DNA from: Streptomycetaceae bacterium
GTDB lineage: Bacteria; Actinomycetota; Actinomycetes; Streptomycetales; Streptomycetaceae
Assembly: GCA_019243445.1 (NCBI GenBank)
Contig: JAFAUH010000367.1
Span: 1-64,000 of the forward strand
Reading direction: 5' to 3'
Length of the DNA: 64,000 nucleotides
The translations under genes were made by a program, and so were the position numbers. The first letter of the stretch is position 1. Every line of letters starts with the position of its first letter. The notes below the pieces were generated by a model. That model saw only the letters and a program-made list of their open reading frames with translations, made no database searches and had not been told where the DNA came from. Below, piece after piece: positions 3,161 to 33,656 of the stretch.

Positions 3161-3237
3161 GTGCGGGTCGGTGGGGGGTTGGGGGCGGGCAACGGCCCGG
3201 GGGCGCCCCAACGGCCGCCACAGGCAAGCACACCGCC

Positions 3238-3282
3238 CGGAGGGGGTCAACCAGCGAAAAGCATGCTGGTTGACCCCCTCCG
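3238..3282. repeat. 18-bp inverted repeat with GAAAAGCAT loop
   Basis: Arm CGGAGGGGGTCAACCAGC (3238-3255), loop GAAAAGCAT (3256-3264), and the exact reverse complement (3265-3282). The same nine-base loop tops a different 20-bp stem at 28460-28508, and the shorter AGCGAAGCAT forms the loop at 28400-28425. A kept loop on unrelated stems suggests recognition as a folded single strand, or a shared transfer or replication protein. No T-tract follows, so it is not an obvious terminator. Confidence 0.6.
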
Positions 3283-3430
3283 AACGGCGCGCTAGGGCTA
3301 CGCCCGTCCGCCGGGGCGCCCCCGACCCGAACCCACCCCCGTATGTGGCCTACGGCCGGGGACCGGCCGACGCCGTCGCCAACGTGCCAGCTGACCAGGG
3401 GATTTCACTCGTTCAGATCATGAGCAGGAC

Positions 3431-3550
3431 TTGACCCGACTACCATAAACATGGTTCAATAGATGTGTTGGGAGGGGATGGCAGCCCCCGACCGACACCC
3501 CGGCACCTCCTGGTACCGGGACCAACCCCCTTCGCACACAAGGAGTCGAT
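3431..3550 (+). promoter_or_regulatory. cassette promoter and structured leader, copy 1
   Basis: -35 TTGACC (3431-3436), 18-bp spacer, -10 TTCAAT (3455-3460), then the conserved leader beginning AGATGTGTTGGGAGGGGATG. GUGUUGGG pairs with CCCGACAC-type sequence around a GGGG/CCCC inner stem. A second hairpin CCCGG/CCGGG follows, then ACCCCCTTCGC ahead of AAGGAG and the ATG at 3551. Confidence 0.7.
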
Positions 3551-3949
3551 ATGACGGAATTTCCCCAGAGTTTCCGGGTCACGCTGAACGACGTGGACGA
3601 AGAACGGCCCCTCAACAGTGAGATGGTCGTCACCGCGCTGGAGCGGCGGGAAGAGGCCGACTACTTCGGAGGCCGCCGCGTGGGCCTGTACGCGGCATTC
3701 AAGATGGCCCTGAGGGCCGGCGGCCAGCCGACATCGTTCGGCCTCTCCCGCCTTGAAGGCGAGCCGCACTGGGTCATCGATGACAAGTTCGGGGCGAACG
3801 GGTTCCCGCACTTCTGCCACGGGTTCGGCTCCCGCGTCACCATCCCGCGCACCGTCCGCGAGGAGATCGCCGAGGTACTGGACAACCTCGCCCGCAGCAG
3901 CGGACTCGCCGCCGAAATCGGCGCCGATATCCCGCTCATCCTCGCGTAA
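3551..3949 (+). CDS. hypothetical protein, first gene of cassette array
   Basis: A 132-residue soluble protein starting at ATG 3551, 8 bp after AAGGAG. It has mixed alpha/beta composition: MTEFPQSFRVTLNDVDEE at the start, aromatic and His-rich GANGFPHFCHGFGSRVTI in the middle, and a final amphipathic helix with TVREEIAEVLDNLARSS. I recognise no family. It has its own conserved promoter-leader and is followed by a hairpin at 3958-3986, so it is a one-gene unit. Confidence 0.6.
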   Translation: MTEFPQSFRVTLNDVDEERPLNSEMVVTALERREEADYFGGRRVGLYAAFKMALRAGGQPTSFGLSRLEGEPHWVIDDKFGANGFPHFCHGFGSRVTIPRTVREEIAEVLDNLARSSGLAAEIGADIPLILA

Positions 3950-3957
3950 CACCAACC

Positions 3958-3986
3958 TGCGGGGGCGGTACCACGCCGCCCCCGCA
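3958..3986 (+). terminator. hairpin after first cassette gene
   Basis: Arms TGCGGGGGCGG (3958-3968) and CCGCCCCCGCA (3976-3986) pair perfectly across a 7-nt loop, 9 bp after the stop codon. There is no U-tract, as is usual in Streptomyces. Confidence 0.5.
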
Positions 3987-4068
3987 CCGGACCAATCCCC
4001 CACTTCCGGCAGAAACAGCGTGGCAGCCGCCCCGCCGGAGACCCCCTTCACTCCCAAAGGAGTTCGCC

Positions 4069-4758
4069 ATGACCCGGACCGCCACCACCGCGCCGAGCCC
4101 GCTCGACATCATCACGGCCGCAGCCGCCGCCATCGCGGTACGCGGCTACTACCAGCCGCTTTCGCGCATGTGGGAATCCGCCGTGCCCACCGTTATGGAC
4201 GTCGAGCACTACCTGAACGGCACTGCCATGGACCGGGGTATCCGGCCGCGCATGGACGCCGCCCAGGCCGAGGCCGCAGCCACCGCCGCCGCAGTCCTGC
4301 AATGGGCACGCGACGGCGAGAGCGGCAACGAGTACCGGGCCAAGCTCGCCGCACTCGCCCGCGCCGAGCACGCCACCGGCCGGGATCTTTCGATCCTGTG
4401 TTCCGCAGTAGTCGCCTGGCAGCGCGACCAGCAGCGCGCGCACCGCGCCGCCGAGCGGGCCGACGAGGCCGCACACTCCCGCCATCAAGGCGCCATCGGC
4501 GAACGGCTCACCGCCGCCGTCACCGTGGACGCCGTCGTGAAACTGCCGGAACGGCATTACGGCTACCGCACCCAGCAACGGCACATGATCAAGCTCCGCG
4601 ACGAGGACCGCAACGTGTTCGTGTGGTTCTCCAGCACCGCCACCATCCCCAGCGAAGGGGACCGGCTCACCGTCACCGGCACCGTCAGCAAGCACGACAC
4701 TTACCGCGAGACCGCACAGACCTACCTGACGCGGTGCCGCTGGACAAAGGCCGACTGA
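4069..4758 (+). CDS. hypothetical protein with OB-fold-like C-terminus
   Basis: A 229-residue protein starting at ATG 4069 after AAAGGAG. Its last 150 residues are clearly paralogous to the end of the protein encoded at 6382-7626: both share ...HSRHQG..GxR/LT-x-TV, YGYRxQQR, NVxxW, a TV/TxxKHDT block and AQTxLxRCR. The C-terminal strands look like a small OB-type barrel that could bind single-stranded nucleic acid; that is inference. It lacks the N-terminal domain and Cys cluster of the longer paralogue. No conserved promoter precedes it, but the ACCCCCTTCAC...AGGAG element does. Confidence 0.6.
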   Translation: MTRTATTAPSPLDIITAAAAAIAVRGYYQPLSRMWESAVPTVMDVEHYLNGTAMDRGIRPRMDAAQAEAAATAAAVLQWARDGESGNEYRAKLAALARAEHATGRDLSILCSAVVAWQRDQQRAHRAAERADEAAHSRHQGAIGERLTAAVTVDAVVKLPERHYGYRTQQRHMIKLRDEDRNVFVWFSSTATIPSEGDRLTVTGTVSKHDTYRETAQTYLTRCRWTKAD

Positions 4759-4791
4759 CAGAAGAAACCCCGTAAGGGCCATGAGATGGGG

Positions 4792-4910
4792 TGGACAACC
4801 ACCCAAAAACATGGTTCAATAGATGTGTTGGGAGGGGATGGCAGCCCTCGACCAGCACCCCGGCACCACCCGGCACCGGGACCAACCCCCTTCACACGCA
4901 AGGAGCGAAC
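4792..4910 (+). promoter_or_regulatory. cassette promoter and structured leader, copy 2
   Basis: -35 TGGACA (4792-4797), 17-bp spacer, -10 TTCAAT (4815-4820), then the conserved leader (one base differs in the GCAGCCCTC part) and ACCCCCTTCAC-ACGC-AAGGAG before ATG 4911. Confidence 0.7.
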
Positions 4911-5645
4911 ATGAGTGACACCACAGGCAAGCTGAACAAGATCCGTGCGCTGCTCGACAAGGCGAACGATGAGGCCACGACGCTGGAGGAGGCCGAGACC
5001 TACCGGGGCAAGGCATTCGAGCTCATGGCCAAGTACGGCATCGAACAGGCTCTGTTGAACGAGGCCCGCCCCGGCAGCGACAAGCCCGCCGACCGGCTGA
5101 TCACCCTTGACAACCCCTGGGCCAGGGAAAAGGCGCACCTTGCCAACGGGCTTGCGAAGGCCCTCCGGTGCGAGCTGATCATGGTGCCGCGCAAGGACGG
5201 AAATCCCGGCCATGCCGTCCACGTCTTCGGGTACGCATCGGACCTTGAGCGGCTGGACATGCTGTTCACCTCCCTCCTCCTGCAGATGTTCGGGGAACTC
5301 GCCCGCACCCCCGTCCCCGCCAACGACACCCCGCGAGCGTTCCGCCGCTCCTGGATCCTCGGATTCGCGGCCAAGGTGAGCGCCCGCGTCCGTGAGGCCG
5401 AGCAGCACGCCCGCAACGAGGCGACCACGGCCGCCACTGTCAGCGGCCGCAGCACGGATCTTGTTCTCGCCGACCGCAAGGCCGTCGTCACCCGCGCGTT
5501 CCACGACGCCTATCCCCGTCGCCGCTCGGGAGGCCGGACCACCATGACCGGCCGTGGGTACGGCGCAGGCAAGGCCGCCGGAGCCCGCGCCGACATCGGC
5601 GGCAGCCGCATCGGTGGCGGCAGCCGACACGCCATCAGCCGCTAA
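4911..5645 (+). CDS. DUF2786-domain protein
   Basis: A 244-residue protein from ATG 4911. The N-terminus KLNKIRALLDKANDEATTLEEAETYRGKAFELMAKYGI matches the DUF2786 pattern (KIraLLaKAe.t..pEAeaf..KA.eLMakY.I), common in phage and plasmid proteins of unknown function. The middle holds FGYASDLERLDMLFTSLLLQM and a helical RVREAEQHAR segment. The last 60 residues are Gly/Arg-rich (GRGYGAGKAAGARADIGG) and probably disordered or nucleic-acid binding. A strong hairpin follows at 5654-5683. Confidence 0.75.
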   Translation: MSDTTGKLNKIRALLDKANDEATTLEEAETYRGKAFELMAKYGIEQALLNEARPGSDKPADRLITLDNPWAREKAHLANGLAKALRCELIMVPRKDGNPGHAVHVFGYASDLERLDMLFTSLLLQMFGELARTPVPANDTPRAFRRSWILGFAAKVSARVREAEQHARNEATTAATVSGRSTDLVLADRKAVVTRAFHDAYPRRRSGGRTTMTGRGYGAGKAAGARADIGGSRIGGGSRHAISR

Positions 5646-5653
5646 CCCCCAGA

Positions 5654-5683
5654 CTCCGGGGCGGGACCGCACCCGCCCCGGAG
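5654..5683 (+). terminator. hairpin terminator after DUF2786 gene
   Basis: Arms CTCCGGGGCGGG (5654-5665) and CCCGCCCCGGAG (5672-5683), 6-nt loop, 9 bp after the stop codon. Confidence 0.6.
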
Positions 5684-5780
5684 CCCATCACCACCAACAC
5701 CACAAGTCGAGGGGGCGGCAGCCCCTACCTGATACCGGCCCCACCGGGCCGGCGGAACCCCCTTCATTCAGGAGCAACAC

Positions 5781-6164
5781 ATGAGCGACACCCCTGCACA
5801 CTCCGCGGTCCACGTCAGTACCCGCTGGGCACATGAGGCGTTCACCCCGACATCGCCCAAAGTCACCGAATCCGCGCTTATCGACGCGATCCGGGTGCAA
5901 CTTCGCACGTGGGTGACCCGCTCCCTGGGAATCGCGATCCCGGACCGCATCGAGACCGCGCCCGACCTGTCGGACCTCGTCCACGACATCGCGGAGCATG
6001 CGGAGGAGCAGTGGGGCGATTTCGACGACGACAGCAGCATCATGGGAGTGGCGCACGTCATCAACGCGCACGCCGACACGCTGCGCGCCGCCTATGGACA
6101 CGGCGACGGGCACCTGTTGCAGGCCCTCACCTCTTTGAATATCGCCGCCCGCATCCTGGCCTGA
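5781..6164 (+). CDS. hypothetical protein in cassette array
   Basis: A 127-residue acidic protein from ATG 5781, after ACCCCCTTCATTCAGGAG. Mostly helical: ALIDAIRVQLRTWVTRSLG, DLSDLVHDIAEHAEEQWGDFDDD and AHVINAHADTLRAAYG. I recognise no family. The upstream region (5684-5780) lacks the conserved promoter but keeps a GGGGGCGGCAGCCCC-type hairpin and the ribosome-site-masking element, so it may be a decayed cassette or depend on read-through. A terminator hairpin follows at 6174-6198. Confidence 0.55.
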   Translation: MSDTPAHSAVHVSTRWAHEAFTPTSPKVTESALIDAIRVQLRTWVTRSLGIAIPDRIETAPDLSDLVHDIAEHAEEQWGDFDDDSSIMGVAHVINAHADTLRAAYGHGDGHLLQALTSLNIAARILA

Positions 6165-6173
6165 CAGAAGAGC

Positions 6174-6198
6174 GGGCCGGGGTGACCCGCCCCGGCCC
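6174..6198 (+). terminator. hairpin terminator
   Basis: Arms GGGCCGGGG (6174-6182) and CCCCGGCCC (6190-6198) with a 7-nt loop, 9 bp after the stop codon of the previous gene. Confidence 0.55.
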
Positions 6199-6261
6199 AG
6201 GGGTAGCCCCCGGAGCCCGAGTCGACCACCACAACTCACCCGATGGCCACGAGAGCAGGGC

Positions 6262-6381
6262 TTGACCCCACCACCAAAAACATGGTTCAATAGATGTGTT
6301 GGGAGGGGATGGCAGCCCCCGACCAGCACCCCGGCCCCACCAGGCCGGGTATCAACCCCCTTCACGCAAGGAGCAGCAATC
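6262..6381 (+). promoter_or_regulatory. cassette promoter and structured leader, copy 3
   Basis: -35 TTGACC (6262-6267), 18-bp spacer, -10 TTCAAT (6286-6291), conserved leader. The second hairpin here is CCCGGCC/GGCCGGG, differing from copies 1, 2 and 4 but still pairing. Then AACCCCCTTCACGCAAGGAG before GTG 6382. Confidence 0.7.
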
Positions 6382-7626
6382 GTGAGTGATCTCGCGTCTT
6401 TCCGGTTCGACATCCCGGCCGGCGCCGTCTGTCGGCTGGAGTCCATCGTTGAGGCGACCAACCGCCGGGCGGCTGTGCATGGACTGAGCGCCTATCGGGT
6501 TGAGTTGTCGGAACCGTTCGAGAAGCCCTGGGATGACCCGTTCACCGGCCGTGCGGTCGGCACCGTGACGACGGTGACCGCGACTCTCACCGGCGCGGTG
6601 CCCCGCCATCGAGGATGGGCGATCGTGGCCCGGCTCGATCACGACGAGGACGAGGCGGCCGGCGGAAGCGGTGAGACCGTGATGAGCCTCTTCCCCGGTC
6701 TGCCCGAGGATCTGGCAGCTGTCGCGCGCGCACACCGAGCCCGCCCCCAGCAGTGCGACGGGTGCCACGCCACCCGCCACCGCACCGCTACCTACCTCGC
6801 GTATCACCGCGAGACCGGCCGCGTCCTGCAGCTGGGATCCACCTGCGTGGAGCCGTACACCGGCCTGCCGCTGAAGGGCCTTGAGACCCTATGGCGGTTC
6901 GGAACGCTCAAAGAGGGCGACTGGGAGGAGGCAGGCGAGGGCGGATTCCCGGCCGATCTCCGGGTCGGGGTGCTGGACGTCTTGCGCGTCACAGTCGCTG
7001 TCGTCACCCTCACCGGCGGCTACCGCAGCCGCGAGATGTCATGTGGGGGCGAGACGACCACCGCCGACCTGGTGAGCGATTACTACTACAACCGCCGGGC
7101 GAACACACTGCGAAACGACGTCGATGCCGACACCAGCGCCGCCGAAACCGCCAAGGCGGTACGGGCGTGGGCACTCGCCGGACACGGCGCGGACAGTGAT
7201 TACCGGCACAAAGTGGCCGTACTCTCCAAGGGCGAGACCATCCACAACCGCCACCTTGCGGTACTCGCCTCAGCCGTCGCCGGTTGGTCCCGCGATCAGC
7301 GCCGGGCCGCCGAGGAAGCCGCCGCCCGCAACTCCCGCCACCAGGGCGAAGTAGGCCAGCGGATCACCGTCACCGCCACCGTCGCCCGCGTCCACGAGCT
7401 GGAGAGCCGCACCTACGGCTACCGCGAACAACAGCGATGGCTGGTGACTTTCCAGGACCCCGACGACAACGTGTACATCTGGTACGCCACCACCAGCAAC
7501 ATCCCCGACGAGCGCGAAACCGTCCGCCTCACTGGCACCGTCAAAAAGCACGACACGTTCCGCGACATCGCGCAAACCGTGCTGAACCGATGCCGCGTCA
7601 CCACGGCGGAACCCGCCAACGCTTAA
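6382..7626 (+). CDS. Zn-ribbon plus OB-fold-like protein
   Basis: A 414-residue protein starting at GTG 6382 (AAGGAG 9 bp upstream). Residues 1-110 are beta-rich. Around residues 124-150 CDGCHATRHR and LGSTCVEPYTG form a probable zinc site. The middle is helical (TSAAETAKAVRAWALAGHG). The last 150 residues repeat in the protein at 4069-4758 and look like a small beta-barrel (GQRITVTATVARV...NVYIWYATTSNI...VRLTGTVKKHD). A role in binding nucleic acid, perhaps single-stranded, is inference. A perfect hairpin follows the gene. Confidence 0.65.
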   Translation: MSDLASFRFDIPAGAVCRLESIVEATNRRAAVHGLSAYRVELSEPFEKPWDDPFTGRAVGTVTTVTATLTGAVPRHRGWAIVARLDHDEDEAAGGSGETVMSLFPGLPEDLAAVARAHRARPQQCDGCHATRHRTATYLAYHRETGRVLQLGSTCVEPYTGLPLKGLETLWRFGTLKEGDWEEAGEGGFPADLRVGVLDVLRVTVAVVTLTGGYRSREMSCGGETTTADLVSDYYYNRRANTLRNDVDADTSAAETAKAVRAWALAGHGADSDYRHKVAVLSKGETIHNRHLAVLASAVAGWSRDQRRAAEEAAARNSRHQGEVGQRITVTATVARVHELESRTYGYREQQRWLVTFQDPDDNVYIWYATTSNIPDERETVRLTGTVKKHDTFRDIAQTVLNRCRVTTAEPANA

Positions 7627-7635
7627 TAGCAGGTC

Positions 7636-7664
7636 CGGCCGGGGCGAGAAAGGCGCCCCGGCCG
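7636..7664 (+). terminator. hairpin terminator
   Basis: Arms CGGCCGGGGCG (7636-7646) and CGCCCCGGCCG (7654-7664), 7-nt loop, just after the stop codon. Confidence 0.6.
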
Positions 7665-7695
7665 CCGCCATTGGCGACACGCCACGGGCCGAGCG

Positions 7696-7816
7696 TTGAC
7701 AGCCCATCTAAAACATGGTTCAATAGATGTGTTGGGAGGGGATGGCAGCCCCCACCCGACATCCCGGCACCACCCGGTACCGGGACCAACCCCCTTCACC
7801 CGCAAGGAGCAAAACC
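7696..7816 (+). promoter_or_regulatory. cassette promoter and structured leader, copy 4
   Basis: -35 TTGACA (7696-7701, consensus), 17-bp spacer, -10 TTCAAT (7719-7724), conserved leader, hairpin CCCGGCACC/GGTACCGGG with one mismatch, then AACCCCCTTCACCCGCAAGG before GTG 7817. Confidence 0.72.
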
Positions 7817-8740
7817 GTGAGCACCACCTTGACCCGTCGCGGCCGTAGCTGCACGCCGGAGGAGAAGGAGAAGTTCGCCGAGCAGCGGGCCGAGACCCGC
7901 GCCCGCGTCAACCAGCTGGCGGACACCGCCATGACGGCACTGGCCACCTCCGCCCAGCTGTGGAAGACCTTCCTGCGGGCCGCCGCCGTGCACCACCAGC
8001 GGCCGGGCACGGTCAACCTTTTGTTGCTCGCCGTGCAAGCCCCTGAAGCCGAGGCCGTCAACTCCTTCCAGGGATGGCGGGCCCAAGGCCGCCAGGTCCG
8101 CCGGGGCGAGAAGGGCCACAAGATCTACACCACCGTCATCAAGCCCCGCCAAGGCGAGGCCGAGCCGCAGCACAACGACAGTGAAGACCAGGCCGCCGAC
8201 GAGCGCGGTGCCTTGGCGGGCTTCAGCGTCGGGACGGTGTTCGACATCGCGCAGACGGACCCGATCCAGGGCAAGGACCAGCCGGACCTGACATCCCCGT
8301 ACCGGATCAGCGCCGATCAGGCCGCCGCCGCCGTCCGAGCCCAGCTCGCCCGGCACGGTTTCCGCGTCGAGGAGCGCCCCGGAGCCGGAGCCGCCCACAT
8401 GGACGCACGCGAAGACGGAGACGACGGCATGTGGATCCTGCCCCTCGACCCAGCCGACGCCACCGGACCGGCCACAACCCGCGAACTGCTCGGCGTACTC
8501 GCCCACTGCGAATTCCTCGCCGCCAACGGTGGCACAGACAGCCGGACCCTGGCCGACGAGGCCGAGTCCGCCGCCCACCTGGCCGCGCTCATGCTCGGAC
8601 TGCCCACAGGACCCGCACCCTTGCCGGACATCCCTGAGATGAGCCTGGACGACCCCAACAACCCCCCGATCAAGCAGGCCGCTACCGCCGTCGTCACCAT
8701 CGGCCGCCGGATCGCCGCCGACCTGTCCGGACGCCGGTAA
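7817..8740 (+). CDS. ArdC-like single-stranded-DNA-binding domain protein
   Basis: A 307-residue protein from GTG 7817. After a helical N-terminus the segment NSFQGWRAQGRQVRRGEKGHKIYT matches the ArdC N-terminal signature (tf..W...GrqVrkGEKg). This domain binds ssDNA and in IncW plasmids belongs to an antirestriction protein that protects entering DNA. The C-terminal half (LGVLAHCEFLAANGG, ADEAESAAHLAALMLG) resembles the helical part of ArdC metallopeptidase-type partners, but no HExxH motif is visible, so catalysis is unlikely. An antirestriction or establishment role fits the context; inference. Confidence 0.7.
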   Translation: MSTTLTRRGRSCTPEEKEKFAEQRAETRARVNQLADTAMTALATSAQLWKTFLRAAAVHHQRPGTVNLLLLAVQAPEAEAVNSFQGWRAQGRQVRRGEKGHKIYTTVIKPRQGEAEPQHNDSEDQAADERGALAGFSVGTVFDIAQTDPIQGKDQPDLTSPYRISADQAAAAVRAQLARHGFRVEERPGAGAAHMDAREDGDDGMWILPLDPADATGPATTRELLGVLAHCEFLAANGGTDSRTLADEAESAAHLAALMLGLPTGPAPLPDIPEMSLDDPNNPPIKQAATAVVTIGRRIAADLSGRR

Positions 8741-8752
8741 CCCTGTCTCGGC

Positions 8753-8786
8753 GGGTGGGTGCGGGAGAGCGGTCCCGCACCCACCC
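8753..8786 (+). terminator. hairpin terminator
   Basis: Arms GGGTGGGTGCGGGA (8753-8766) and TCCCGCACCCACCC (8773-8786), 6-nt loop. Confidence 0.6.
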
Positions 8787-8822
8787 GGCCCCGAGCCCCT
8801 TCGTTCGAACAGAAATCCCGCC

Positions 8823-8885
8823 ATGACCATCAACAGCGCCGTTCCGCAGGGACGTTCACCCGCACGGAGTGCACGCGAGGCTTGA
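8823..8885 (+). CDS. possible 20-residue ORF or decayed gene start
   Basis: ATG 8823 opens a 20-codon frame (MTINSAVPQGRSPARSAREA) ending in a TGA that overlaps the next promoter's -35. Upstream is CCCCTTCGTTCGAACAG, a weak echo of the leader element, without a clear AGGAG. It may be the start of a lost cassette gene or a chance frame. Confidence 0.22.
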   Translation: MTINSAVPQGRSPARSAREA

Positions 8886-9003
8886 CCCACCGCCAAAAAC
8901 ATGGTTCAATAGATGTGTTGGGAGGGGATGGCAGCCCCCACCCGACACCCCGGCACCACCCAGTACCGGGGCCAACCCCCTTCACCCATCAAGGAGTTTC
9001 AAG
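8882..9003 (+). promoter_or_regulatory. cassette promoter and structured leader, copy 5
   Basis: -35 TTGACC (8882-8887), 17-bp spacer, -10 TTCAAT (8905-8910), conserved leader with CCCCGG/CCGGGG second hairpin, then ACCCCCTTCACCCATCAAGG before ATG 9004. Confidence 0.72.
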
Positions 9004-9387
9004 ATGAACGCCACCACCGAGCGCCCGACCCCCGCCGACCTCCCCGCCGGAACCCTCATCCGCGTCCAGCCCCACCCCCGCTACACGCGCATCCCCGCCA
9101 GCAACGGCATCGTCGTCACACCGTATGGCCCCGAAGAGACCGCGCACACGCGGGACATGGTGCTGGTGTGGTTCTGGGGACTCGGCGCCCCCGTGCCCGG
9201 CACTTCCGTTCACCTGATCTTCCCCGCCGAGATCACCCCGCTGCACACCACGCTCGACACCATGCCCGCCCCGGTGTTCGACACACTCGCCCAAACCGCC
9301 GTAGCCCACCGTGACGCTCTCCCGTGGGACGACATGAAACCCCTCGCCGACGCCATTAACGCCGCCGCCCAGCGCCGCCAGAGCTGA
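9004..9387 (+). CDS. hypothetical protein in cassette array
   Basis: A 127-residue soluble protein from ATG 9004. The N-terminal half is beta-rich (GTLIRVQPHPRYTRIPASNG, MVLVWFWGLGAPVPG) and may be a small barrel; the C-terminus is helical (APVFDTLAQTAVAHRDALPW). No family recognised. It is a stand-alone unit with promoter copy 5 and a hairpin at 9395-9425. Confidence 0.6.
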   Translation: MNATTERPTPADLPAGTLIRVQPHPRYTRIPASNGIVVTPYGPEETAHTRDMVLVWFWGLGAPVPGTSVHLIFPAEITPLHTTLDTMPAPVFDTLAQTAVAHRDALPWDDMKPLADAINAAAQRRQS

Positions 9388-9394
9388 CCTAACC

Positions 9395-9425
9395 GGCCGG
9401 GGGCGGGCCCACCCCGCCCCCGGCC
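9395..9425 (+). terminator. hairpin terminator
   Basis: Arms GGCCGGGGGCGGG (9395-9407) and CCCGCCCCCGGCC (9413-9425), 5-nt loop, 8 bp after the stop codon. Confidence 0.6.
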
Positions 9426-9715
9426 ACCCACGCCGACCAGACCAGGCCCGCCCCCGGCAACACCACCCCGCCGGCACCCACCCGCAGCGCGCGAAAGCGG
9501 ACGCCCTCCGGGCGGCACCCCCTCACCGGCGCGTTCACCGCCGCGCCCCGCCCCGGCCGCAAGCGGCCGATCCGGGCCCCGACGGGCGCCGGCCCCGGGC
9601 GCGCCACCGACCACAAAGGGCGCCGCCCCTGCACCGCGCTCCAAAGCGGCCAAAGCCCCGGCCGCCCGATCACGCCGCCGGCCACACCCCCACGACTCCC
9701 ACCAGGAGCACAGCC
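9426..9715. other. GC-rich spacer without a confident gene
   Basis: About 290 bp of very GC-rich sequence with open frames on both strands but only Pro/Arg/Ala-rich translations, which I take as composition artefacts. A ribosome site (CCAGGAGCA) appears only at its end, before ATG 9716. Confidence 0.4.
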
Positions 9716-9862
9716 ATGCCCCAACACGACGACCCGCACGAGGACCTCAACGCCCGCGCCATCCCCCGCATCCCACGCCCCCGGCGCGAAGACGAAACCG
9801 GCGGAGGCCAACCGCCCACCCACGGGCGCATCCCACCCCAAGACGGCCCCACCTCCAACTGA
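9716..9862 (+). CDS. small hypothetical protein (48 aa)
   Basis: ATG 9716, preceded by AGGAG at 9704-9708, encodes 48 residues, acidic then Pro/Arg-rich (MPQHDDPHEDLNARAIPR). Thirty-three bases later comes the next gene, so the two are probably co-transcribed. No function can be proposed; it is probably disordered. Confidence 0.45.
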   Translation: MPQHDDPHEDLNARAIPRIPRPRREDETGGGQPPTHGRIPPQDGPTSN

Positions 9863-9895
9863 CAACCCCACACCCACAACCCGAAAGAGCAATCC

Positions 9896-10285
9896 GTGAT
9901 CCCCCTCTACCTGCTGTACCTCGTGACAGGCGCCCTGATCTTCACCAGCGACGGCGCGACACCCACCACCGCGCTGCGCGACATCCAGACCGACAAGACC
10001 CGCCCGCCACTGCGCCACGAACTGCTCGCATCCATCGTCGCGTTCACCGTCGCACTCCCGCTGTGGCCGGTCGCCGTCGCGTGGCGGACAGCCCTCGTCG
10101 CCACACGCGCCATCCGCCGACGACACCCTGAACACCCCAACGTCACCAGGCTGCGAACCAAGGACCGCCGACCGATGCCACCGGCGGAACCACGTTGCCC
10201 TGCACCACCGCTCAGTCCGGAACCCGAGACGGAGCTGTCCAAGAGGCTCAGCCTGGACATCCTCACAAAAAACATGGTCCAATAA
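9896..10285 (+). CDS. small membrane protein
   Basis: A 129-residue protein from GTG 9896. Two hydrophobic segments: LYLLYLVTGALIF near residues 4-16 and LLASIVAFTVALPLWPVAVAW near 42-62; then a basic, Pro-rich cytoplasmic tail. Its final codons overlap the divergent promoter copy 6 (the -10 lies at 10278-10283). Unknown role in the envelope. Confidence 0.55.
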   Translation: MIPLYLLYLVTGALIFTSDGATPTTALRDIQTDKTRPPLRHELLASIVAFTVALPLWPVAVAWRTALVATRAIRRRHPEHPNVTRLRTKDRRPMPPAEPRCPAPPLSPEPETELSKRLSLDILTKNMVQ

Positions 10286-10399
10286 GTTGGGGTCGGGAGC
10301 ATCTCCCGACCCGCATACCGCAGCCGAACAACAGTGACGGCCAGGCAAAGTTTGGCAGCTCGCCTGGCCGTCCGACCCCCTTCACGAGGAGTCCCCACC
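10254..10399 (+). promoter_or_regulatory. divergent cassette promoter and leader, copy 6
   Basis: -35 TGGACA (10254-10259), 18-bp spacer ending AAAAAACATGG, -10 TCCAAT (10278-10283). The leader sequence is different but the architecture is the same: hairpin 1 GGTCGGGAG/CTCCCGACC, hairpin 2 GACGGCCAGGC/GCCTGGCCGTC, then GACCCCCTTCACGAGGAG before ATG 10400. This supports a selected RNA structure. Confidence 0.65.
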
Positions 10400-10657
10400 A
10401 TGCTACGTGACTCGCGGCGCTCTCCCGAAAAGCCGGAGCCGTACGACTGGGTCCAGGTCCGGCCCGCCAACCGTGCCGGCATCGACCCGACCCAGACCTA
10501 CCTCGTCGCCGACCAGCACAGCCTGTACGCCTACGAGCTCAACCACCGCAAGGATCATCCCGATCACCAGGACCGGGCCGCCGTCGTCGACATCGACGAC
10601 GTCACGCTCGTCACCCGATTCGCCGAAACCGGCGCCCGCAGCTGGAGGCCGCTATGA
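10400..10657 (+). CDS. hypothetical protein
   Basis: An 85-residue protein from ATG 10400 (AGGAG 8 bp upstream). Contains DWVQVRPANRAGIDPTQTYL and DRAAVVDIDDVTLVTRF, suggesting a small beta-rich fold. It ends in an ATGA overlap with the next gene. No family recognised. Confidence 0.55.
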   Translation: MLRDSRRSPEKPEPYDWVQVRPANRAGIDPTQTYLVADQHSLYAYELNHRKDHPDHQDRAAVVDIDDVTLVTRFAETGARSWRPL

Positions 10658-11166
10658 CCACGGCCCTCACCAGCGCGCGGTCGCACCTCATATCCAGGAG
10701 CCCGCACATGCCACCCCGCCACGCAGCCGACCAGGACCCCAACCGGCTCATCACACCCGCCGAGTTCGCCCGGCTGCTCGGGCACAAGGACACCACCACG
10801 CTCAGCCACTGGATCAAAAACCCGCCGCCCGGATTCCCCACCCCCAAAGCCTGGGACGAACTGCCCAGCGGACGCCGCCGCCCCCGATGGAAACTCCGCC
10901 ACGCCCAGGAATACGCCAGCACACCCCGGCCCAGCCGGACCGGCGCCGGCCGCCGCACAGGATCCCGCAACGCCCCGCCCCACGCATACACCGGAGACCC
11001 CCGTCTCGACCTCGCCCGCAGCCTGCTCACCAAGCACCCCCACGCCACCACCGGCGAACTCGCCAAGCACCTAGCACAGCAACTCCAGCAACCGCCCTCG
11101 CACACCACACTGACCCGCATCATCAACACCGCCCGCCAACACCCCACCCCAGAGACCGACTCATGA
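10654..11166 (+). CDS. putative DNA-binding protein
   Basis: A 170-residue basic protein from ATG 10654, overlapping the previous stop by 4 bp. ITPAEFARLLGHKDTTTLSHWIKNPPPGFPTPKAW resembles the AlpA/excisionase-type winged helix, where a helix-turn-helix is followed by a Pro-rich wing. The rest includes RSLLTKHPHATTGELAKHLAQ, a second helical element. It could be a regulator or an excision factor for the recombinase at 17.9 kb; inference from motif only. Confidence 0.5.
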   Translation: MTTALTSARSHLISRSPHMPPRHAADQDPNRLITPAEFARLLGHKDTTTLSHWIKNPPPGFPTPKAWDELPSGRRRPRWKLRHAQEYASTPRPSRTGAGRRTGSRNAPPHAYTGDPRLDLARSLLTKHPHATTGELAKHLAQQLQQPPSHTTLTRIINTARQHPTPETDS

Positions 11167-11540: not shown

Positions 11541-11780
11541 GTGGCAGGAGTACGAGGACTCAAACAGAGCGGCCGGACGGGGAAATTCGACCCGGAAGAG
11601 GTCGTGACCCTGACCCTCCGCTTCCGGCCTGATGACCCATACCGCCCTCTGTACGAGGAGCTCGTGAAACGCCTGGACGTGTCCGGCGCTGAAGTAGCGC
11701 GCCGTGGCATGAAGGCGCTTCACGATGAGCTCAGCCGCACGGGATGGACGCCTGCGGAGGAGGCCCGCATAGCCAGCTGA
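11541..11780 (+). CDS. small regulator-like protein, copy A
   Basis: A 79-residue protein from GTG 11541. This start was chosen because TATGAT (11528-11533), a good -10, sits 7 bp upstream, implying a leaderless mRNA; the paralogue at 14733 has the same arrangement. FDPEEVVTLTLRFRPDDPYRPLYEELVKRLDVSGAEVARRGMKAL gives a strand followed by helices, as in small ribbon-helix-helix-like repressors; that fold is inference. A start at ATG 11529 or 11466 is possible. Followed by a hairpin and structured leader A. Confidence 0.5.
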   Translation: MAGVRGLKQSGRTGKFDPEEVVTLTLRFRPDDPYRPLYEELVKRLDVSGAEVARRGMKALHDELSRTGWTPAEEARIAS

Positions 11781-11790
11781 CAAAAAGAAG

Positions 11791-11809
11791 GCCCCCGCTT
11801 TGCGGGGGC
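11791..11809 (+). terminator. hairpin after regulator copy A
   Basis: GCCCCCGC (11791-11798), TTT, GCGGGGGC (11802-11809). The same element follows copy B at 14992-15008. Confidence 0.5.
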
Positions 11810-11825
11810 GGCCAACAGGACAAAT

Positions 11826-11996
11826 GAAGCTTGCCTGAGGCCCCTCACTCCACGGCTAGCAACCACCGAGGAGCCTCACCAGTAGGAACCCCTGCCAGGG
11901 GGTCCCCGCGAATCCCACCCCGAACGGCTGCCAGGCCGCCGGGTCAGTCTTCTTTTGCCCCTCGTAACCAGAGAGGCCGTTGCCATCGTACCAACA
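11826..11996 (+). ncRNA. structured leader RNA, copy A
   Basis: Homologous to the leader at 15034-15199. Outer stem GAGGC/GCCTC. Second hairpin GGAACCCCT-GCC-AGGGGGTCC. Third hairpin CGGC-TGCCAG-GCCG, then a pyrimidine tract with TTCTTTTG, like an attenuator. Stem bases differ between the copies while pairing is kept. Confidence 0.5.
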
Positions 11997-12059
11997 GGCA
12001 GCGGTGGCGGTACCTCCATGCCTGGATCCGGTGTGTCTTGGCCGGATCTACATGTCGAC
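11997..12059 (+). repeat. 63-bp repeat, copy A
   Basis: Identical to 15200-15262 except for one base. It includes GGATCCGG...CCGGATC and the start of the small gene at 12018. Flanking sequence is much more diverged. Confidence 0.85.
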
Positions 12060-14528: not shown

Positions 14529-14583
14529 CTCCCGCCCACCTTTCCGTCACGCCACAGGAGCGTGACGGAAAGGTGGGCGGGAG
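14529..14583. terminator. 23-bp perfect hairpin after helicase gene
   Basis: Left arm 14529-14551 and right arm 14561-14583 pair over all 23 bp, with a 9-nt loop. The top of the stem is TTTCCGTCACG/CGTGACGGAAA, so it also resembles the O-type inverted repeat, with 11 bp between half-sites instead of 10. Likely terminator, possibly also a protein site. Confidence 0.65.
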
Positions 14584-14978: not shown

Positions 14979-14991
14979 CGACATAAATAAG

Positions 14992-15008
14992 GCCCCCGAG
15001 TAGGGGGC
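14992..15008 (+). terminator. hairpin after regulator copy B
   Basis: GCCCCC (14992-14997), GAGTA, GGGGGC (15003-15008); counterpart of 11791-11809. Confidence 0.45.
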
Positions 15009-15033
15009 GCGCCAACAGGGACAAAAGAAGATC

Positions 15034-25279: not shown

Positions 25280-25330
25280 AACTCGGCACCGCCGTTGTCC
25301 GCCACGGAAGCACACAACCGGAGGGGAACC

Positions 25331-28227: not shown

Positions 28228-28508
28228 CGGCACACGCGGCCGGCCGATGGCCGCCCGCGTGTGCCGCTCACTGTAGCGCTGTGGCGGGCCGGTTGGGGTG
28301 ACCGGCCGGGGATGGCGGCGTTCGCCGCCCTACGGGCCGCCCAAGGGCGTCCCGAGGCTCACGCAAGCGTGAGCCAGTCGAGCACAGCTCGACAGACGAG
28401 CTCATCCAGCGAAGCATGGATGAGCAGGCATCAGCAGAGCTGATGCCAAAGGCAAGGACAGCTGATAGCTCAGCTCAGCGAAAAGCATGCTGAGCTGAGC
28501 TATCAGCT
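28228..28508. other. candidate oriT: run of eight hairpins
   Basis: Eight inverted repeats in 281 bp, just before the relaxase gene: 28228-28266 (12-bp arms starting CGGCACACGCGG), 28287-28307, 28314-28329, 28356-28375 (GGCTCACG/CGTGAGCC), 28377-28393 (GTCGAGC/GCTCGAC), 28400-28425 (GCTCATCC/GGATGAGC, loop AGCGAAGCAT), 28428-28446 (GCATCAGC/GCTGATGC), and 28460-28508 (20-bp arms, loop GAAAAGCAT). MobF relaxases recognise a hairpin beside nic next to their gene, so this is where I would place oriT. The nick site cannot be read from sequence alone. Confidence 0.6.
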
Positions 28509-28640: not shown

Positions 28641-31600
28641 ATGATCACACTGCATGCGATCTCCGCGGGCAGCGGCATCGACTACCTCATGCGCACCGTC
28701 GCCAGCGGCGACAAAGAGATCAAAACCAAGGACCTCAACGCCTACTGGTCATCCGGCGGTGACACCCCCGGCGAGTGGATCGGCCGCCAGGCCGCCGCGC
28801 TCGGACTGTCCGGCCAGGTCACCCAGGAAGCCGCCGATGCGATCTTTAAAGACGGCATCGACCCAGCCACCGGCAAGCCGCTGGGCATGCGGTGGAAGCA
28901 GTACCCCAGTGCGGATGAGCGGTATGAGGCCATGTTGGCGCGCGAGCCGCATGCCACCGAGGCCCGCAAGATCGAGCTCCGCAAGAAGGCTGACAAGTTG
29001 GGCCAGCAGACCGCCCGTGCCGGATGGGAGAGCGTCTTTTCCCCCGTCAAGTCGTGGTCGATCCTGTGGGGTGTCAGCAATGACGAGATGCGGGCCCGCC
29101 TGGAAGAGGCCGAGAAAGCCGCGTTCGAGAAGGTGTGGACCCGCATCGAGCGCGAGGCCGCATGGACCCGCAACGGGCCCCGCGGTGGACAGGTCCAGGT
29201 CGAGGCTGAGGGGCTGATGGCAGCCGCGTTCATCCACCGGTCCAGCCGTGCAGGTGACCCCGACTTTCACCGGCACGTCGCCATCAGCACCAAGGTGCAG
29301 GACAAAGAGGGCCGGTGGCTCGCCCTGGATGCCCGCCCACTGCACCGCATCACCGTGGCACTCAGCGAGATGTACACCACCGAGCTTGAGCGCGAGATGT
29401 GGCAGCGGTTCGGCATCCTCGCCGCCCCGCGCGAGGACAGCATCCGGCCTGACAAGCGCCCGATTCGCGAATTCCTCAGCGTGTCCGCCCCGGTGGTCTC
29501 CCTGTTCTCCCAGCGCCGCCGACAGACCGAGCGCGAGCTCAAGCGCATGGTGACCGACTTCCGCGAGCGCGAGGGACGCGAGCCATCCCGGGCCGAACAA
29601 TACGAACTCGCCCAAGCCGCCGCGCTCACCGCCCGCCCAGACAAGCGCCCCAAGAACGTGGGTGCCGAGCGCCGCCAGTGGCGCCGCCGCGCATGGCAGG
29701 CCGGCGTGCGCTTTCCCGGGCAGTGGGTCAAGCAGGCCCAGACCGCCAGCCGTACTGCACTCGCCGAACGCCCGGAAGTGCCGCCGCTTCAGGACGTGGC
29801 CGCCGCCGTACTGGCCACACTGGAGAGCGAACGCGAGACCTGGACCCGCTCCAACGCCGAGGCAGAGACCTACCGTCAGCTCACCGCAGCCGGATGGCAC
29901 CTCGCGGCCGGCGACCGGTTCGATGTCCTCGTTGCCCAGGTCACCGACCACGTGCTGAGCCCGGAAAAGTGCGAACTCCAAAGCCCGCCGGAAGTGCTCA
30001 CCATCCCCTCGCGCTACCTGCGCCAGGACGGATCGCCCATCTTTGTACAGGTCGGCAGCGCCCGCTACACCTCCCACCGCATCAAGGGATGGGAGGCCGA
30101 TTTGGTCGAGGCCGCCACCCGCCCGGCCCCCGTACGGCTGCTCACGCCCGAGCAGATCGACGCCGCGCTAGCCGCCGGAGACGCCGAACGCGGCTTCATC
30201 CCGACCGACGAACAGCGGGCCGTCGTCCACGGCGTGTTCACCCGCGACGTGCGCGCAACGGCCATCATCGGCCCGGCAGGCACCGGCAAGACCACGATCA
30301 TGCGTCTGGTCAAGGAGGTGACCGACGCCCACGGCATCGAGGTGTTGGGGCTCGCCGGCGGTCAGCTCCAGGCCGACCAGCTCGCCGAAGCTGCAGGCAT
30401 CAGGGCCGAGAACATCGCCCGATGGCGGACCATGTCCGAGCAGTACGGCCGCGGGCAAGCACGGTGGACCCTGCGCCCGGACACCATCGTGATCGTGGAC
30501 GAGGCCGGGCAGGCATCCACCCCCGACCTGCACGCCATCCTCACCCAGGTGGAGGGCGCCGGCGGCCGACTGCTGCCCGTCGGCGACCCGCGGCAGCTCG
30601 GTTCCCCCGGAGTCGGCGGCGCCCTTGCACTGCTGGAGTCCGACAGCGAGGCCCTGCACCTGTCCGAGGTAAGGCGGTTCCGCTCCGCCGACGGCGACCT
30701 ACGACAGTGGGAGATCGACGCCGCAAACGCGCTCGCCCGAGGCGACGCCGAAGCATCCTGGGAGGCGTACAACTCCCGCGGCCGCATCCACGTGGGCACG
30801 CTCGATGAGATGCTGAACGCCGCCTACGAGGCATGGCAGCGCGACACTGCCGACGGCTTGACCAGCATTCTGATCGCCCCGACGAACGCGATCGCCGCCC
30901 AACTCTCCGACCGCGCGAGGGACGACCGCATCGCCGCCGGCATCGTGGACGACACCCGCACCGTCACCCTCGCCGACGGCAACAAGGCCGGCGCCGGAGA
31001 CCAGATCGTCACCCGCGCCAACAACCGAGACATCCGGTGCGAGAACAACACCCGCCTGTGGGTCCGCAACGGCGACATCTGGACCGTGCGCGACGTGCGC
31101 CGCGACGGCTCCCTATTGGTTGAGCACGCCGCCACCGGCGGCCACGCCATTCTCCCCGCCGACTACGTCACGAACGGTGGCGTCGAACTCGGCTACGCCA
31201 TCACCAAAGACCGCGCGCAAGGGGTCACGGTGCAGACCGGGCACGGCCTTCTTGTGCCCGGCATGGACGCCAACAGCGCCTATCCCACGCTCACCCGCGG
31301 CACCTACACCAACCACGCCTACCTGTCGAACGAGTCCCAGACCATCGACCTGGAGACCGGCGAACCGGGCCGTGCGCTCACCGGCCGACAGGCGTGGGCC
31401 GGCATCGTCGCCCGCGACGGCACCCAGCTTTCCGCCACCGCCACCCAGCGGAAACTGTGGGACGAGGCCGACGCCATCCGCACCCACGCGCACCGGTTGC
31501 GGTACGTCCTGGACGAGCTCGCCAGCGTCGCCTGCCGCGATGCCCTCGCCGAACTCATCGGCGCCAAGCTCGCAGACGCCCTGTACACTTCGCCCGCGTG

Positions 31601-33656
31601 GCCCGCCCTGCGGGCTCAGCTCACCCGGCTCGCGGACGACGGATACGACACCGACCGCCTCGCAGTCGCCGCCGACGCGATGCGCGACTGGACAGCCGTA
31701 CGCGACTACGCGGCCATCCTTCATTCCCGCATCCGAGTTCTGGTCGACAGTGACGGCGACAGTTTCCAGCTCGCCGAGGACGCCGACCGTCCAGCCAGTG
31801 CACCGACCTACATCACTGACCCGGTCGCCACCGGAAGCGACGTACTCAAGGCCATGGGCCTGTCCCTCCCGGAGACCCAGGCCGACGAGACAGATGACCG
31901 GTTCGCGTTCGCACACACCCTTGCCCGCGCGACCCGCGAGCGCGCCGACCGCCTCGCAGGCCAGGCCCAAGACGACGCAAGGGCCGGCCACGGGTGGGCA
32001 GCTGCCTACGGCCCAGAGCCCGAAACGCTCGCCGATGCGGTTGCCTGGCGCGACCGGATCGCCGCCGCAGCCGCGTTCCGCGACCTCGCCGACTACACCG
32101 GAGCCGACCCCACCGGCCCCGCACCGACCGAGGACGAACCCGAATTGCGCGGACTGTGGCGAGCCGCCCAACAACTCCCGGACGACGCCACCGCCTACAC
32201 AAACGCCCTCGCACTGGTTGCCTCCGGCGCCACCTGGCTGGACGCCGTCGGCACCCCACCACCCCCCGGTGACCCGGCACGGCCCGCGTGGGTCCGCGCA
32301 GTCGCCGCCGTCGCCGACTACCGCAGGTTGTGGGAGTACGGGCACGAGACCGCCGCCATCGGCGACCGCCCCACCGAGCCGGTGCAGCGCGCCGACTACG
32401 ACAACACTAAGCGCGCATTGGACGCGCACCGATGGGTGCGCCAACACCCCAAACTTGCCGACGCGGACGCCGACACTCTCGCCGTGCTCATCGCCCGCGG
32501 GCACGTCGGCGAGGCCATCGCCGAGCAGGCCGCCGCCGCCATCGCCGCCCACGACGCCGCCATTCGCGCCCAAGTGGCCGCCGAGCAGGCCGCCGAAGAC
32601 GCCGCCAACCGAGTTGCCGCCGCACGCGAGCAAGCCGCCGCCGAACAGGCCGCCGGCCAGGCCCAGGCCGCGGCCGAGCTCACCGCAGCAGCCGAACGCG
32701 CCCGCATCGAAGCCCAGCAGGCCCGCACCCAGGTCGAAGCGACACGGGCCGAGGTGGAGGCCACCGCCCCCGCCGCGCTCGCCGCCCGCGAGGACATGCG
32801 CCGCGCCGAGGACGCCCGCCGCATCCTCGCCCACCGCACCCTCAACCCTGAACCGGACGCCCCAAACGACGGTCCGGAGCAAGGTCCCCGCGCGTGGGAA
32901 CAGCGCCCGCACGGCGACCTCACCGACCGCGAGTTGGTCACCGCCGCAGGCCGCGCCGTCGCCGCCGCCGTCGAGATCGAGAAGGCCGCCGAGGCCCAAA
33001 GCGCCGCCCAGGCCGCCGAGGTGGCCGCTGAGCTGCGCGATCACGCCGCCGAACTGCGGACTGAGTCCCGCACCCGCGCGGTGATGGAACCCGAGCAGCG
33101 CGAGGCCGAGACCCGCGAACGTGCCACCCACCGCAACCGCACCGCCGCGCGGCTGGACCGCTTGTACGCCGACCGCACCGGCCCCGAGGCCCTGCACGCC
33201 GCCCGCGGCCGCAGCAAGCACACCACACCGGACGCCCCAGAGACGACCGGCCGTCACCGCACCAGCGACGCACAGCAGCAGGCCAAACCCACGGCCGATG
33301 CTCCCGCACGCCAGCGCAAGCGCACCGAGACCCCGCAGCCGGCGAAGCCGCCGCGCAACCGCACCGCCGCGCGGTTGGACCGCCTGTACGCCGACCGCAC
33401 CGGGCCGGATGCCCTGCGCGAGGACCGGCGCCGCAGCCAACCGGCGCCGCAGAACCGGCCTACCCCCGAGAGCAAGCCCACCGCGTCGACCCCGGAGCAC
33501 AAACCGGCACCGAAGAAGCGCCGCAGTGTGGCCAAGCGTCTGGACGAGCTGTACGAGCGCGACGCACGCGGCTCCAAGGACGACCCGAAGGCCCCGGGCA
33601 AGGACCGCCGGCGCCGCCAGCCGCCGCCGCGCCGCCCCGGCGGACCGAGCATCTAA
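28641..33656 (+). CDS. MobF-type relaxase/helicase (TraA-like)
   Basis: 1671 residues from ATG 28641. The N-terminal TrwC-type relaxase domain has Tyr15 in SGIDYLM (and Tyr35 in NAYW) as nicking tyrosine candidates, FSPVKSWSILWG, and the metal-binding His set IHRSSR...DPDFHRHVAIS near residues 197-213. A RecD-like helicase follows: Walker A GPAGTGKTT near 544-552, Walker B IVIVDEAGQ, and later YAITKDRAQGVTV. From about 1250 it is an Ala/Glu coiled coil and a basic tail with three RTAARLDRLYADRTGP-like repeats. It would nick oriT, stay bound to the 5' end and unwind the strand for transfer. Confidence 0.9.
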   Translation: MITLHAISAGSGIDYLMRTVASGDKEIKTKDLNAYWSSGGDTPGEWIGRQAAALGLSGQVTQEAADAIFKDGIDPATGKPLGMRWKQYPSADERYEAMLAREPHATEARKIELRKKADKLGQQTARAGWESVFSPVKSWSILWGVSNDEMRARLEEAEKAAFEKVWTRIEREAAWTRNGPRGGQVQVEAEGLMAAAFIHRSSRAGDPDFHRHVAISTKVQDKEGRWLALDARPLHRITVALSEMYTTELEREMWQRFGILAAPREDSIRPDKRPIREFLSVSAPVVSLFSQRRRQTERELKRMVTDFREREGREPSRAEQYELAQAAALTARPDKRPKNVGAERRQWRRRAWQAGVRFPGQWVKQAQTASRTALAERPEVPPLQDVAAAVLATLESERETWTRSNAEAETYRQLTAAGWHLAAGDRFDVLVAQVTDHVLSPEKCELQSPPEVLTIPSRYLRQDGSPIFVQVGSARYTSHRIKGWEADLVEAATRPAPVRLLTPEQIDAALAAGDAERGFIPTDEQRAVVHGVFTRDVRATAIIGPAGTGKTTIMRLVKEVTDAHGIEVLGLAGGQLQADQLAEAAGIRAENIARWRTMSEQYGRGQARWTLRPDTIVIVDEAGQASTPDLHAILTQVEGAGGRLLPVGDPRQLGSPGVGGALALLESDSEALHLSEVRRFRSADGDLRQWEIDAANALARGDAEASWEAYNSRGRIHVGTLDEMLNAAYEAWQRDTADGLTSILIAPTNAIAAQLSDRARDDRIAAGIVDDTRTVTLADGNKAGAGDQIVTRANNRDIRCENNTRLWVRNGDIWTVRDVRRDGSLLVEHAATGGHAILPADYVTNGGVELGYAITKDRAQGVTVQTGHGLLVPGMDANSAYPTLTRGTYTNHAYLSNESQTIDLETGEPGRALTGRQAWAGIVARDGTQLSATATQRKLWDEADAIRTHAHRLRYVLDELASVACRDALAELIGAKLADALYTSPAWPALRAQLTRLADDGYDTDRLAVAADAMRDWTAVRDYAAILHSRIRVLVDSDGDSFQLAEDADRPASAPTYITDPVATGSDVLKAMGLSLPETQADETDDRFAFAHTLARATRERADRLAGQAQDDARAGHGWAAAYGPEPETLADAVAWRDRIAAAAAFRDLADYTGADPTGPAPTEDEPELRGLWRAAQQLPDDATAYTNALALVASGATWLDAVGTPPPPGDPARPAWVRAVAAVADYRRLWEYGHETAAIGDRPTEPVQRADYDNTKRALDAHRWVRQHPKLADADADTLAVLIARGHVGEAIAEQAAAAIAAHDAAIRAQVAAEQAAEDAANRVAAAREQAAAEQAAGQAQAAAELTAAAERARIEAQQARTQVEATRAEVEATAPAALAAREDMRRAEDARRILAHRTLNPEPDAPNDGPEQGPRAWEQRPHGDLTDRELVTAAGRAVAAAVEIEKAAEAQSAAQAAEVAAELRDHAAELRTESRTRAVMEPEQREAETRERATHRNRTAARLDRLYADRTGPEALHAARGRSKHTTPDAPETTGRHRTSDAQQQAKPTADAPARQRKRTETPQPAKPPRNRTAARLDRLYADRTGPDALREDRRRSQPAPQNRPTPESKPTASTPEHKPAPKKRRSVAKRLDELYERDARGSKDDPKAPGKDRRRRQPPPRRPGGPSI

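Follow-up and report, generated by a model that had tools for sequence, protein, structure and literature searches.

Why should a series of mostly unrelated genes on one piece of actinobacterial DNA each be preceded by almost the same promoter and leader? The question is raised by a gene array near the start of a 64,000-nucleotide stretch of contig JAFAUH010000367.1 (assembly GCA_019243445.1, Streptomycetaceae bacterium), referred to here, in its full length, as the window. A sequence-only reading had described five near-identical promoter-leader units and a diverged sixth, each directly before one accessory gene, and had proposed a cassette array with a shared switch. When the -35/-10 pairs were checked base by base, all six units were found at the positions claimed, with the 17-18 bp spacers claimed. 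The conserved sequence had been said to end about 40 bp past the -10; this was incorrect, as the five copies align across 119 nt, down to the Shine-Dalgarno sequence (SD), with pairwise identities of 73-87%. The cassette array with a common promoter and leader was thereby upheld, but it had been missed that most of what is conserved is an RNA leader, which extends to the SD and is sometimes promoterless.

When as many as 3 mismatches are allowed, the window contains six copies of the promoter core AAAACATGGTTCAAT, where 0.14 would be expected and no shuffle out of 100 gave that many; in the 5.36-Mb genome assembly the core is confined to this array. A pyrimidine-rich box, ACCCCCTTC, occurs eight times in the window against 0.7 expected, in every case before a gene, and the search for it revealed two extra leaders without a promoter, preceding the genes at 4069 and 5781 (Table 1). 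The window total is eight leaders, six of which have a promoter. The proposed rule of one gene per unit does not hold for 3551+4069, 4911+5781 and 10400+10654, where two genes share a unit, and some of the hairpins thought to close the units are, at least in part, the promoterless leaders of the following gene. The genes are unrelated for the most part, as had been stated, the exception being 4069 and 6382, whose proteins are 45% identical over 151 aa in the C-terminal domain.

The leader, about 85 nt long, is laid out as a hairpin (P1) with an NGGC(A/G) apical loop, a second hairpin (P2), the pyrimidine-rich box (CCCCCUUC in the window, about 17 nt 5' of the start codon), an AAGGAG SD and the start codon. 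The first base of P1 lies 5 nt downstream of the -10 hexamer. P1 of units 1 and 3 reads GUGUUGG / GA / GGGG / AUGGCAGC / CCCC / GA / CCGACAC-like arm; that of unit 2 has a single C-to-U change, and in units 4 and 5 the internal loop is reduced to one A.A mismatch. Leader 6 and both promoterless leaders are diverged, yet a GGCAGC loop, the box and the SD are retained, and a counterpart of leader 6 precedes DUF6211 genes of other plasmids. A leader peptide was considered and rejected: P1 is overlapped by an ATG, whose reading frame with respect to the gene varies between copies.

Related arrays were found on two complete Streptomyces plasmids by DNA similarity search, and the array marker DUF6409, present in 13 of a sample of 299 Streptomycetaceae genomes, led to further array regions in which the upstreams of the genes show the same architecture in other sequences. 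A covariance model built from 34 units matched in at least 24 of the 299 genomes (15 candidates were scored per genome, and the counts are lower bounds). Nineteen of these genomes had 2-12 matches each, mostly grouped on a single contig and strand, and the architecture is thus present in at least 19 of the 299, as co-oriented arrays that are mostly plasmid-borne. The named hosts are S. griseorubiginosus, S. xanthii, S. phaeochromogenes, S. alboflavus, S. europaeiscabiei and Kitasatospora. Two single weak matches that were inspected (G147 and G250) were unlike the leader. Across a second sample of 247 genomes from the whole class, the model matched the window's own genome only, and a search of 200 genomes for the hairpin-box-SD spacing pattern returned mostly chance matches. 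The one match from a different family, L364, is probably fortuitous and was set aside.

Two variations on these arrays were noted. Leader arrays occur within two chromosome-size contigs (L221, G184:C1, 5.9 Mb; L171, G294:C1, 7.9 Mb), where they are perhaps integrated plasmids or integrative and conjugative elements. The S. europaeiscabiei plasmid carries a second leader subfamily (L007, at 17006 and 18217), with promoter TGTAAAGTTGTTC and a GGGGCGGCACCC hairpin and without the CCTTCAC box, which heads other same-strand genes.

Comparison of the 34 units showed that 88% of cells were paired, against 33-56% with slid partners, and two-sided changes were present at 9 pairs compared with 4.1 in shuffles (0/500). 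Among 64 distinct hairpins, with G.U and A.C both scored as mismatches, the single internal mismatches of P1 were G.U in 23 cases and A.C in 4 (binomial p 3e-4, a value that is indicative only, because the copies are related). It is therefore the sense strand that folds, most simply as RNA. Together, the covariation and the G.U excess indicate, at the level of sequence comparison, that the leader is selected as sense RNA. This bears on the suggestion that the unit copies are active on single-stranded DNA (ssDNA), that is, as Frpo-like promoters firing on the strand that enters the recipient. Since the array is transcribed toward the relaxase gene and a putative origin of transfer (oriT), the T-strand would serve as its template, a situation known from F-type leading regions (PMC11541004). 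The predicted T-strand (minus-strand) DNA folds of the five promoter regions gave z-scores of +0.9, -1.25, +1.5, -0.9 and 0.0, no stabler than shuffles, and in none of the five were the -35 and -10 enclosed in one stable T-strand hairpin, as in Frpo/ssi islands. With the excess of G.U over A.C also pointing to the sense strand, the suggestion was not supported and is considered very improbable.

The six window promoters all have the form of sigma-70-type extended -10 promoters (TTGACa, 17-18 bp, TGn plus the -10 hexamer), with 5-6 of 6 consensus matches in the -35 and TGG immediately 5' of each -10. The extended -10 accounts for part of the conserved spacer AAACATGG. The -10 hexamer itself, TTCAAT/TTTAAT, is weak. 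Outside the window, 43 of 60 units have at least 4/6 matches in the -35, compared with 11 in shuffled upstreams. Several promoter classes exist, set by the plasmid (AACATGGTTTAAT, AAGGCAGAATTA, GAGGTAATATTG and GTGGTATAGTTT), with P1 unchanged behind them, and hairpin and promoter are therefore separable. Matches to the 14-base promoter core in viral contigs were mostly due to chance.

The hairpin and the box both mark the starts of array genes. On four annotated plasmids, and under a strict stem threshold, a GGC(A/G)-loop hairpin precedes 52/94 array genes and 6/97 others (p 3e-14, which is descriptive, since the array block was delimited by eye). Taking each plasmid's own box 7-mer, 24/33, 27/33, 7/8 and 11/20 array genes have it within 45 nt of their start, compared with 0/15, 0/9, 0/40 and 0/33 other genes in the same plasmid order. 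On five plasmids the boxes on the array strand and on the opposite strand number 39:1, 16:0, 12:0, 6:0 and 8:0; the first ratio is that of the exact 9-mer CTCGAAACC on the S. griseorubiginosus plasmid, where the one opposite-strand copy also stands before a gene. Almost every box stands ahead of an open frame with its SD and start codon. The distance from box to start is 16.6 nt in the window (standard deviation, sd, 1.6) and 21.2 nt in S. griseorubiginosus (sd 2.7), and its sd is 1.6-4.0 on four of the five plasmids and 6.4 on the fifth, whereas the spacing from loop to box is looser (sd 4.8-11.6). The box is therefore tied to translation initiation.

The same spacing has consequences for two other explanations. 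Transcription attenuation or antitermination, in which P1 and P2 would govern readthrough, is suggested by the presence of two promoter-proximal hairpins, and the put RNA of HK022 is an antitermination analogue of such a pair. Readthrough is blocked by EGeRS1-B of plasmid pLS20 (PMC8708921). However, P2 is without a following U-run, the promoterless leaders are often without P2 and close to the next start, and the position of the box is fixed more closely by the start codon than by the hairpin, all of which makes attenuation improbable. In the second explanation, the CCUU of the box would pair with the AAGG of the SD and hide it, and a 5' GGAGGGG would alternatively pair with CCCCUUC. Such CCUU/AAGG stems are seen in several window folds, but the boxes of other plasmids (CUACAC, CUCUCACC, CUCGAAACC and CCACCAACA) offer little or no pairing with the SD, and SD sequestration was rejected as a decidedly improbable switch.

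Promoter, loop and box are uniform inside one plasmid and differ among plasmids, regardless of the downstream gene. The box variants found, by plasmid, are CCCCCTTC, CTCGAAACC, AACCTTCAAC, CCACCAACA and others. Leader identity was 0.887 for the same plasmid and a different gene, 0.819 for a different plasmid and the same gene family, and 0.799 for neither, the values being high because gaps are ignored. As identity follows the plasmid, either the copies evolve together or they keep pace with a reader. That a single gene was recently duplicated in tandem along with its promoter, as the similarity of the window leaders and the domain shared by 4069 and 6382 might suggest, is contradicted for the same reason: across plasmids, leader similarity tracks the plasmid rather than the gene. 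Most of the genes are unrelated, and ParB-N, ArdC, DUF6409 and 6382-type genes bear such leaders on many plasmids. The sequence-only reading was to be abandoned if the repeats proved to be recent duplications of flanking genes only; instead, on many plasmids, this leader architecture was found before genes of shared as well as of differing families, and the chance that duplication is the explanation is close to nil.

The rest of the window contig (64.0 of 64.7 kb covered) and four complete plasmids were found to contain no reverse complement of the 9-nt box, and a base-pairing small RNA (sRNA) is therefore unlikely as the reader. The candidate reader proteins are the product of the last array gene (10654-11166), with weak helix-turn-helix (HTH) similarity, and the 414-aa protein, with a predicted OB-like barrel. 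That the search for a factor or an sRNA found none is concordant with an unregulated expression aid, in which a 5'-terminal hairpin shields the mRNA, the box serves as a standby or enhancer element and recombination keeps the copies uniform, with no trans reader. The location of P1 at or near the predicted +1 in the promoter units, and the fixed position of the box relative to the start codon, would also be expected of such an aid. A pure stabiliser, however, needs neither a conserved NGGC(A/G) loop nor a box that is uniform within and variable between plasmids, and uniformity per plasmid across unrelated genes better fits a matching reader. The expression aid is thus regarded as unlikely, although it deserves serious consideration.

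The array is also found together with a relaxase gene. In all five of the MobF plasmids examined (the window, S. griseorubiginosus, S. xanthii, S. alboflavus and Kitasatospora NBC_01246), mobF lies downstream of the array and is co-oriented with it. Directly 5' of mobF in the window is a series of at least four consecutive hairpins, two of them with GCGAAGC/GCGAAAAGC loops, a loop type of exceptionally stable DNA mini-hairpins. The motif CACACCTC stands just 3' of this cluster, and S. griseorubiginosus and Kitasatospora also have it 5' of mobF. A loop shared between the hairpin at the array head and those near the relaxase gene, as previously claimed, was confirmed, with GAAAAGCAT at 3256 and 28480 and a shorter GCGAAGCAT at 28409. 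The array-head hairpin, which has TTGACC in its stem, is the sole strongly stable ssDNA form, and perhaps acts as the array's one promoter for single strands, or as its priming site. Also 5' of the relaxase gene, 24715-26310 encodes a C-terminal DEDDh/RNase T-type exonuclease domain (PADLOC match PDC-S48), and a perfect 24-bp inverted repeat with a 0-nt spacer lies 3' of this gene, at 26340-26387.

If oriT is located at the hairpin cluster, the array would be the leading region, transcribed toward oriT. The anti-defence genes of surveyed leading regions are transcribed in that direction (PMC11541004), and the ArdC protein of R388 is required in the recipient and not in the donor (PMC7213743). 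Early expression of establishment genes in the recipient had been proposed as the role of the array, and this is plausible because of the array-mobF arrangement and because the arrays, across plasmids, hold ArdC-like, methyltransferase and ParB-N genes.

On the leading interpretation, for which the evidence is about evenly poised, a repeated cis-module makes the array a regulon of the plasmid, and is read at translation or mRNA stability via a plasmid-encoded factor. The mRNA would start from a sigma-70-type promoter peculiar to the plasmid (TTGAC, 17-18 bp, TGn extended -10), with its predicted 5' end at or close to the start of P1; P2 and then the plasmid-specific box follow, just 5' of the SD, and later genes of a unit repeat the hairpin, box and SD without a promoter. 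The factor, probably a protein, would read the hairpin and the box, act on translation initiation or mRNA stability, and so set the joint expression of all array genes, which may serve post-transfer establishment through anti-restriction, ssDNA binding and partition-like functions. It is a tentative, and on balance unlikely, extension of this regulon that the plasmid encodes a single RNA-binding protein, to which the GGC(A/G)-loop hairpin and a code word particular to the plasmid are the recognition signals at dozens of genes, and that this protein switches the genes jointly once transfer has occurred and insulates co-resident plasmids from one another. Several observations weigh against the regulon and its proposed role. 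The hairpin was detected for just 52 of the 94 array genes under the strict stem threshold, and the best regulator candidate, the last array gene, resembles an HTH protein weakly. The S. phaeochromogenes plasmid NZ_CP108590 has an array without an annotated relaxase, and the relaxase of Streptomyces sp. NBC_00134 is not annotated as MobF, so that the link between array and MobF is not absolute.

From its sequence, the leader is rated as a new structured family that would define a plasmid regulon. Rfam gave nothing at or above the gathering threshold in the window array or in five other array loci, and neither an Rfam family nor a paper describing the element was found, the literature search being restricted to open access. 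The nearest known system in setting is EGeRS1 of the pLS20-family Bacillus plasmids, in which repeated structured sequences also lie directly 5' of the ribosome-binding site of ardC and putative establishment operons (PMC8708921). EGeRS1 elements are 400-750 bp long, have no detectable promoter and head operons, by a mechanism that is unexplained (PMC8708921). The Streptomycetaceae leader falls outside that definition, being about 85 nt long, usually with its own promoter (as in six of the eight window copies) and present within units as well; the two were compared by described features and not by sequence. EGeRS2/Reg of p576 similarly places repeated strong promoters before ardC and establishment genes in a single regulon, the mark of which is operator sites of Reg, a ribbon-helix-helix repressor (PMC8708921); no such operator or repressor turned up in the array, for which no operator or ribbon-helix-helix search was made.

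The nearest system in form is SAS/ESAS of the Cluster K mycobacteriophages, a short conserved box at the translation starts of many unrelated genes (PMC3203893). About half of the SAS copies have an upstream inverted repeat, the sequence of which varies between subclusters, and their function is unexplained (PMC3203893). The phage elements consist of GGGATAGGAGCCC and 17-bp repeats, in contrast to the GGC(A/G)-loop hairpin, pyrimidine-rich box and promoters of the plasmids, whose boxes are different from GGGATAGGAGCCC. Frpo/ssi leading-region islands would resemble the array in having establishment-type genes near oriT, and the T-strand as template, which here would follow from the putative oriT (PMC11541004). 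Unlike those islands, the window has ordinary double-stranded -35/-10 promoters, which are not made by a DNA hairpin.

The features of the array and of the relaxase region are listed in Table 1. The 414-aa (6382) family is present in 12 of the other array regions compared, and the family of the last gene in 10-12. The predicted structure of the 414-aa protein has a mean pLDDT of 73, and its best PDB matches are oligonucleotide/oligosaccharide-binding (OB) folds (ssDNA-binding proteins, POT1 and RPA; E at least 0.02), which is suggestive of an OB fold. No relatives of this protein were found encoded on viral contigs, and the array proteins had no matches in PADLOC or NCBIfam.

Table 1. Positions of the array elements and of the relaxase-associated features in the window.
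Feature	Position	Strand	Details
Array-head hairpin	3227..3293		29-nt arms, loop GAAAAGCAT; DNA fold z -8.5
Promoter unit 1	3431..3460	+	-35 TTGACC, 18 bp, TGG-TTCAAT; -10 from 3455
Leader 1	3465..3550	+	P1 3465-3498, P2 3499-3520, box ACCCCCTTC 3525-3533, SD
Unit 1 gene, 132 aa	3551..3949	+	Pfam: no match
Promoterless leader before 4069	3959..4068	+	Hairpins, TGGCAGC loop, ACCCCCTTCAC box, SD
Gene 4069, 229 aa	4069..4758	+	C-terminal domain in common with 6382 gene
Promoter unit 2	4792..4820	+	TGGACA, 17 bp, TTCAAT; -10 from 4815
Leader 2	4825..4910	+	Alignment, folding
DUF2786/DUF7168 gene	4911..5645	+	Domain search
Promoterless leader before 5781	5707..5780	+	GGGGGCGGCAGCCCC hairpin, ACCCCCTTCA box, SD
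Gene 5781, 127 aa	5781..6164	+	Domain search: no family
Promoter unit 3	6262..6291	+	-35/-10 check; -10 from 6286
Leader 3	6296..6381	+	Alignment, folding
Gene 6382, 414 aa	6382..7626	+	Cys-rich middle, predicted OB-like C-terminal barrel
Promoter unit 4	7696..7724	+	TTGACA, 17 bp, TTCAAT; -10 from 7719
Leader 4	7729..7816	+	Alignment, folding
ArdC-N gene (ssDNA-binding anti-restriction domain)	7817..8740	+	PF08401 E 1.4e-7
Promoter unit 5	8882..8910	+	-35/-10 check; -10 from 8905
Leader 5	8915..9003	+	Alignment, folding
DUF6409 gene, array marker	9004..9387	+	E 3.5e-18
Promoter unit 6	10254..10283	+	TGGACA, 18 bp, TCCAAT; -10 from 10278
Leader 6, diverged	10286..10399	+	Two hairpins, second with TTTGGCAGC loop; CCCCCTTCA box
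DUF6211 gene	10400..10657	+	Domain search
Conserved last array gene, candidate regulator	10654..11166	+	Weak HTH similarity
Hairpin cluster directly 5' of relaxase gene, candidate oriT	28356..28508		Repeat search
MobF/TrwC relaxase-helicase gene	28641..33656	+	Co-oriented with array

Several features were noted on either side of the array. Just before it, on the minus strand (2325-2951), is a gene that by its sequence alone appears to encode a resolvase-like serine recombinase. Beyond it, a stretch is duplicated about 3.2 kb apart on either side of a UvrD-like helicase gene (11747-12059 and 14945-15262), the copies sharing 79 nt at 91% identity as well as 51-nt and 35-nt matches at 75%. Directly 3' of the helicase gene is a perfect 24-bp inverted repeat with a 7-nt spacer (14529-14583).

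Because the code is uniform within plasmids and different between them, a trans-acting reader is directly testable via box swaps. The combination of promoter, GGC(A/G)-loop hairpin and box provides a sequence handle which may mark up to about 40 mostly uncharacterised genes per plasmid as one regulon, and which lets the candidate establishment and anti-defence genes of Actinobacteria be listed computationally.

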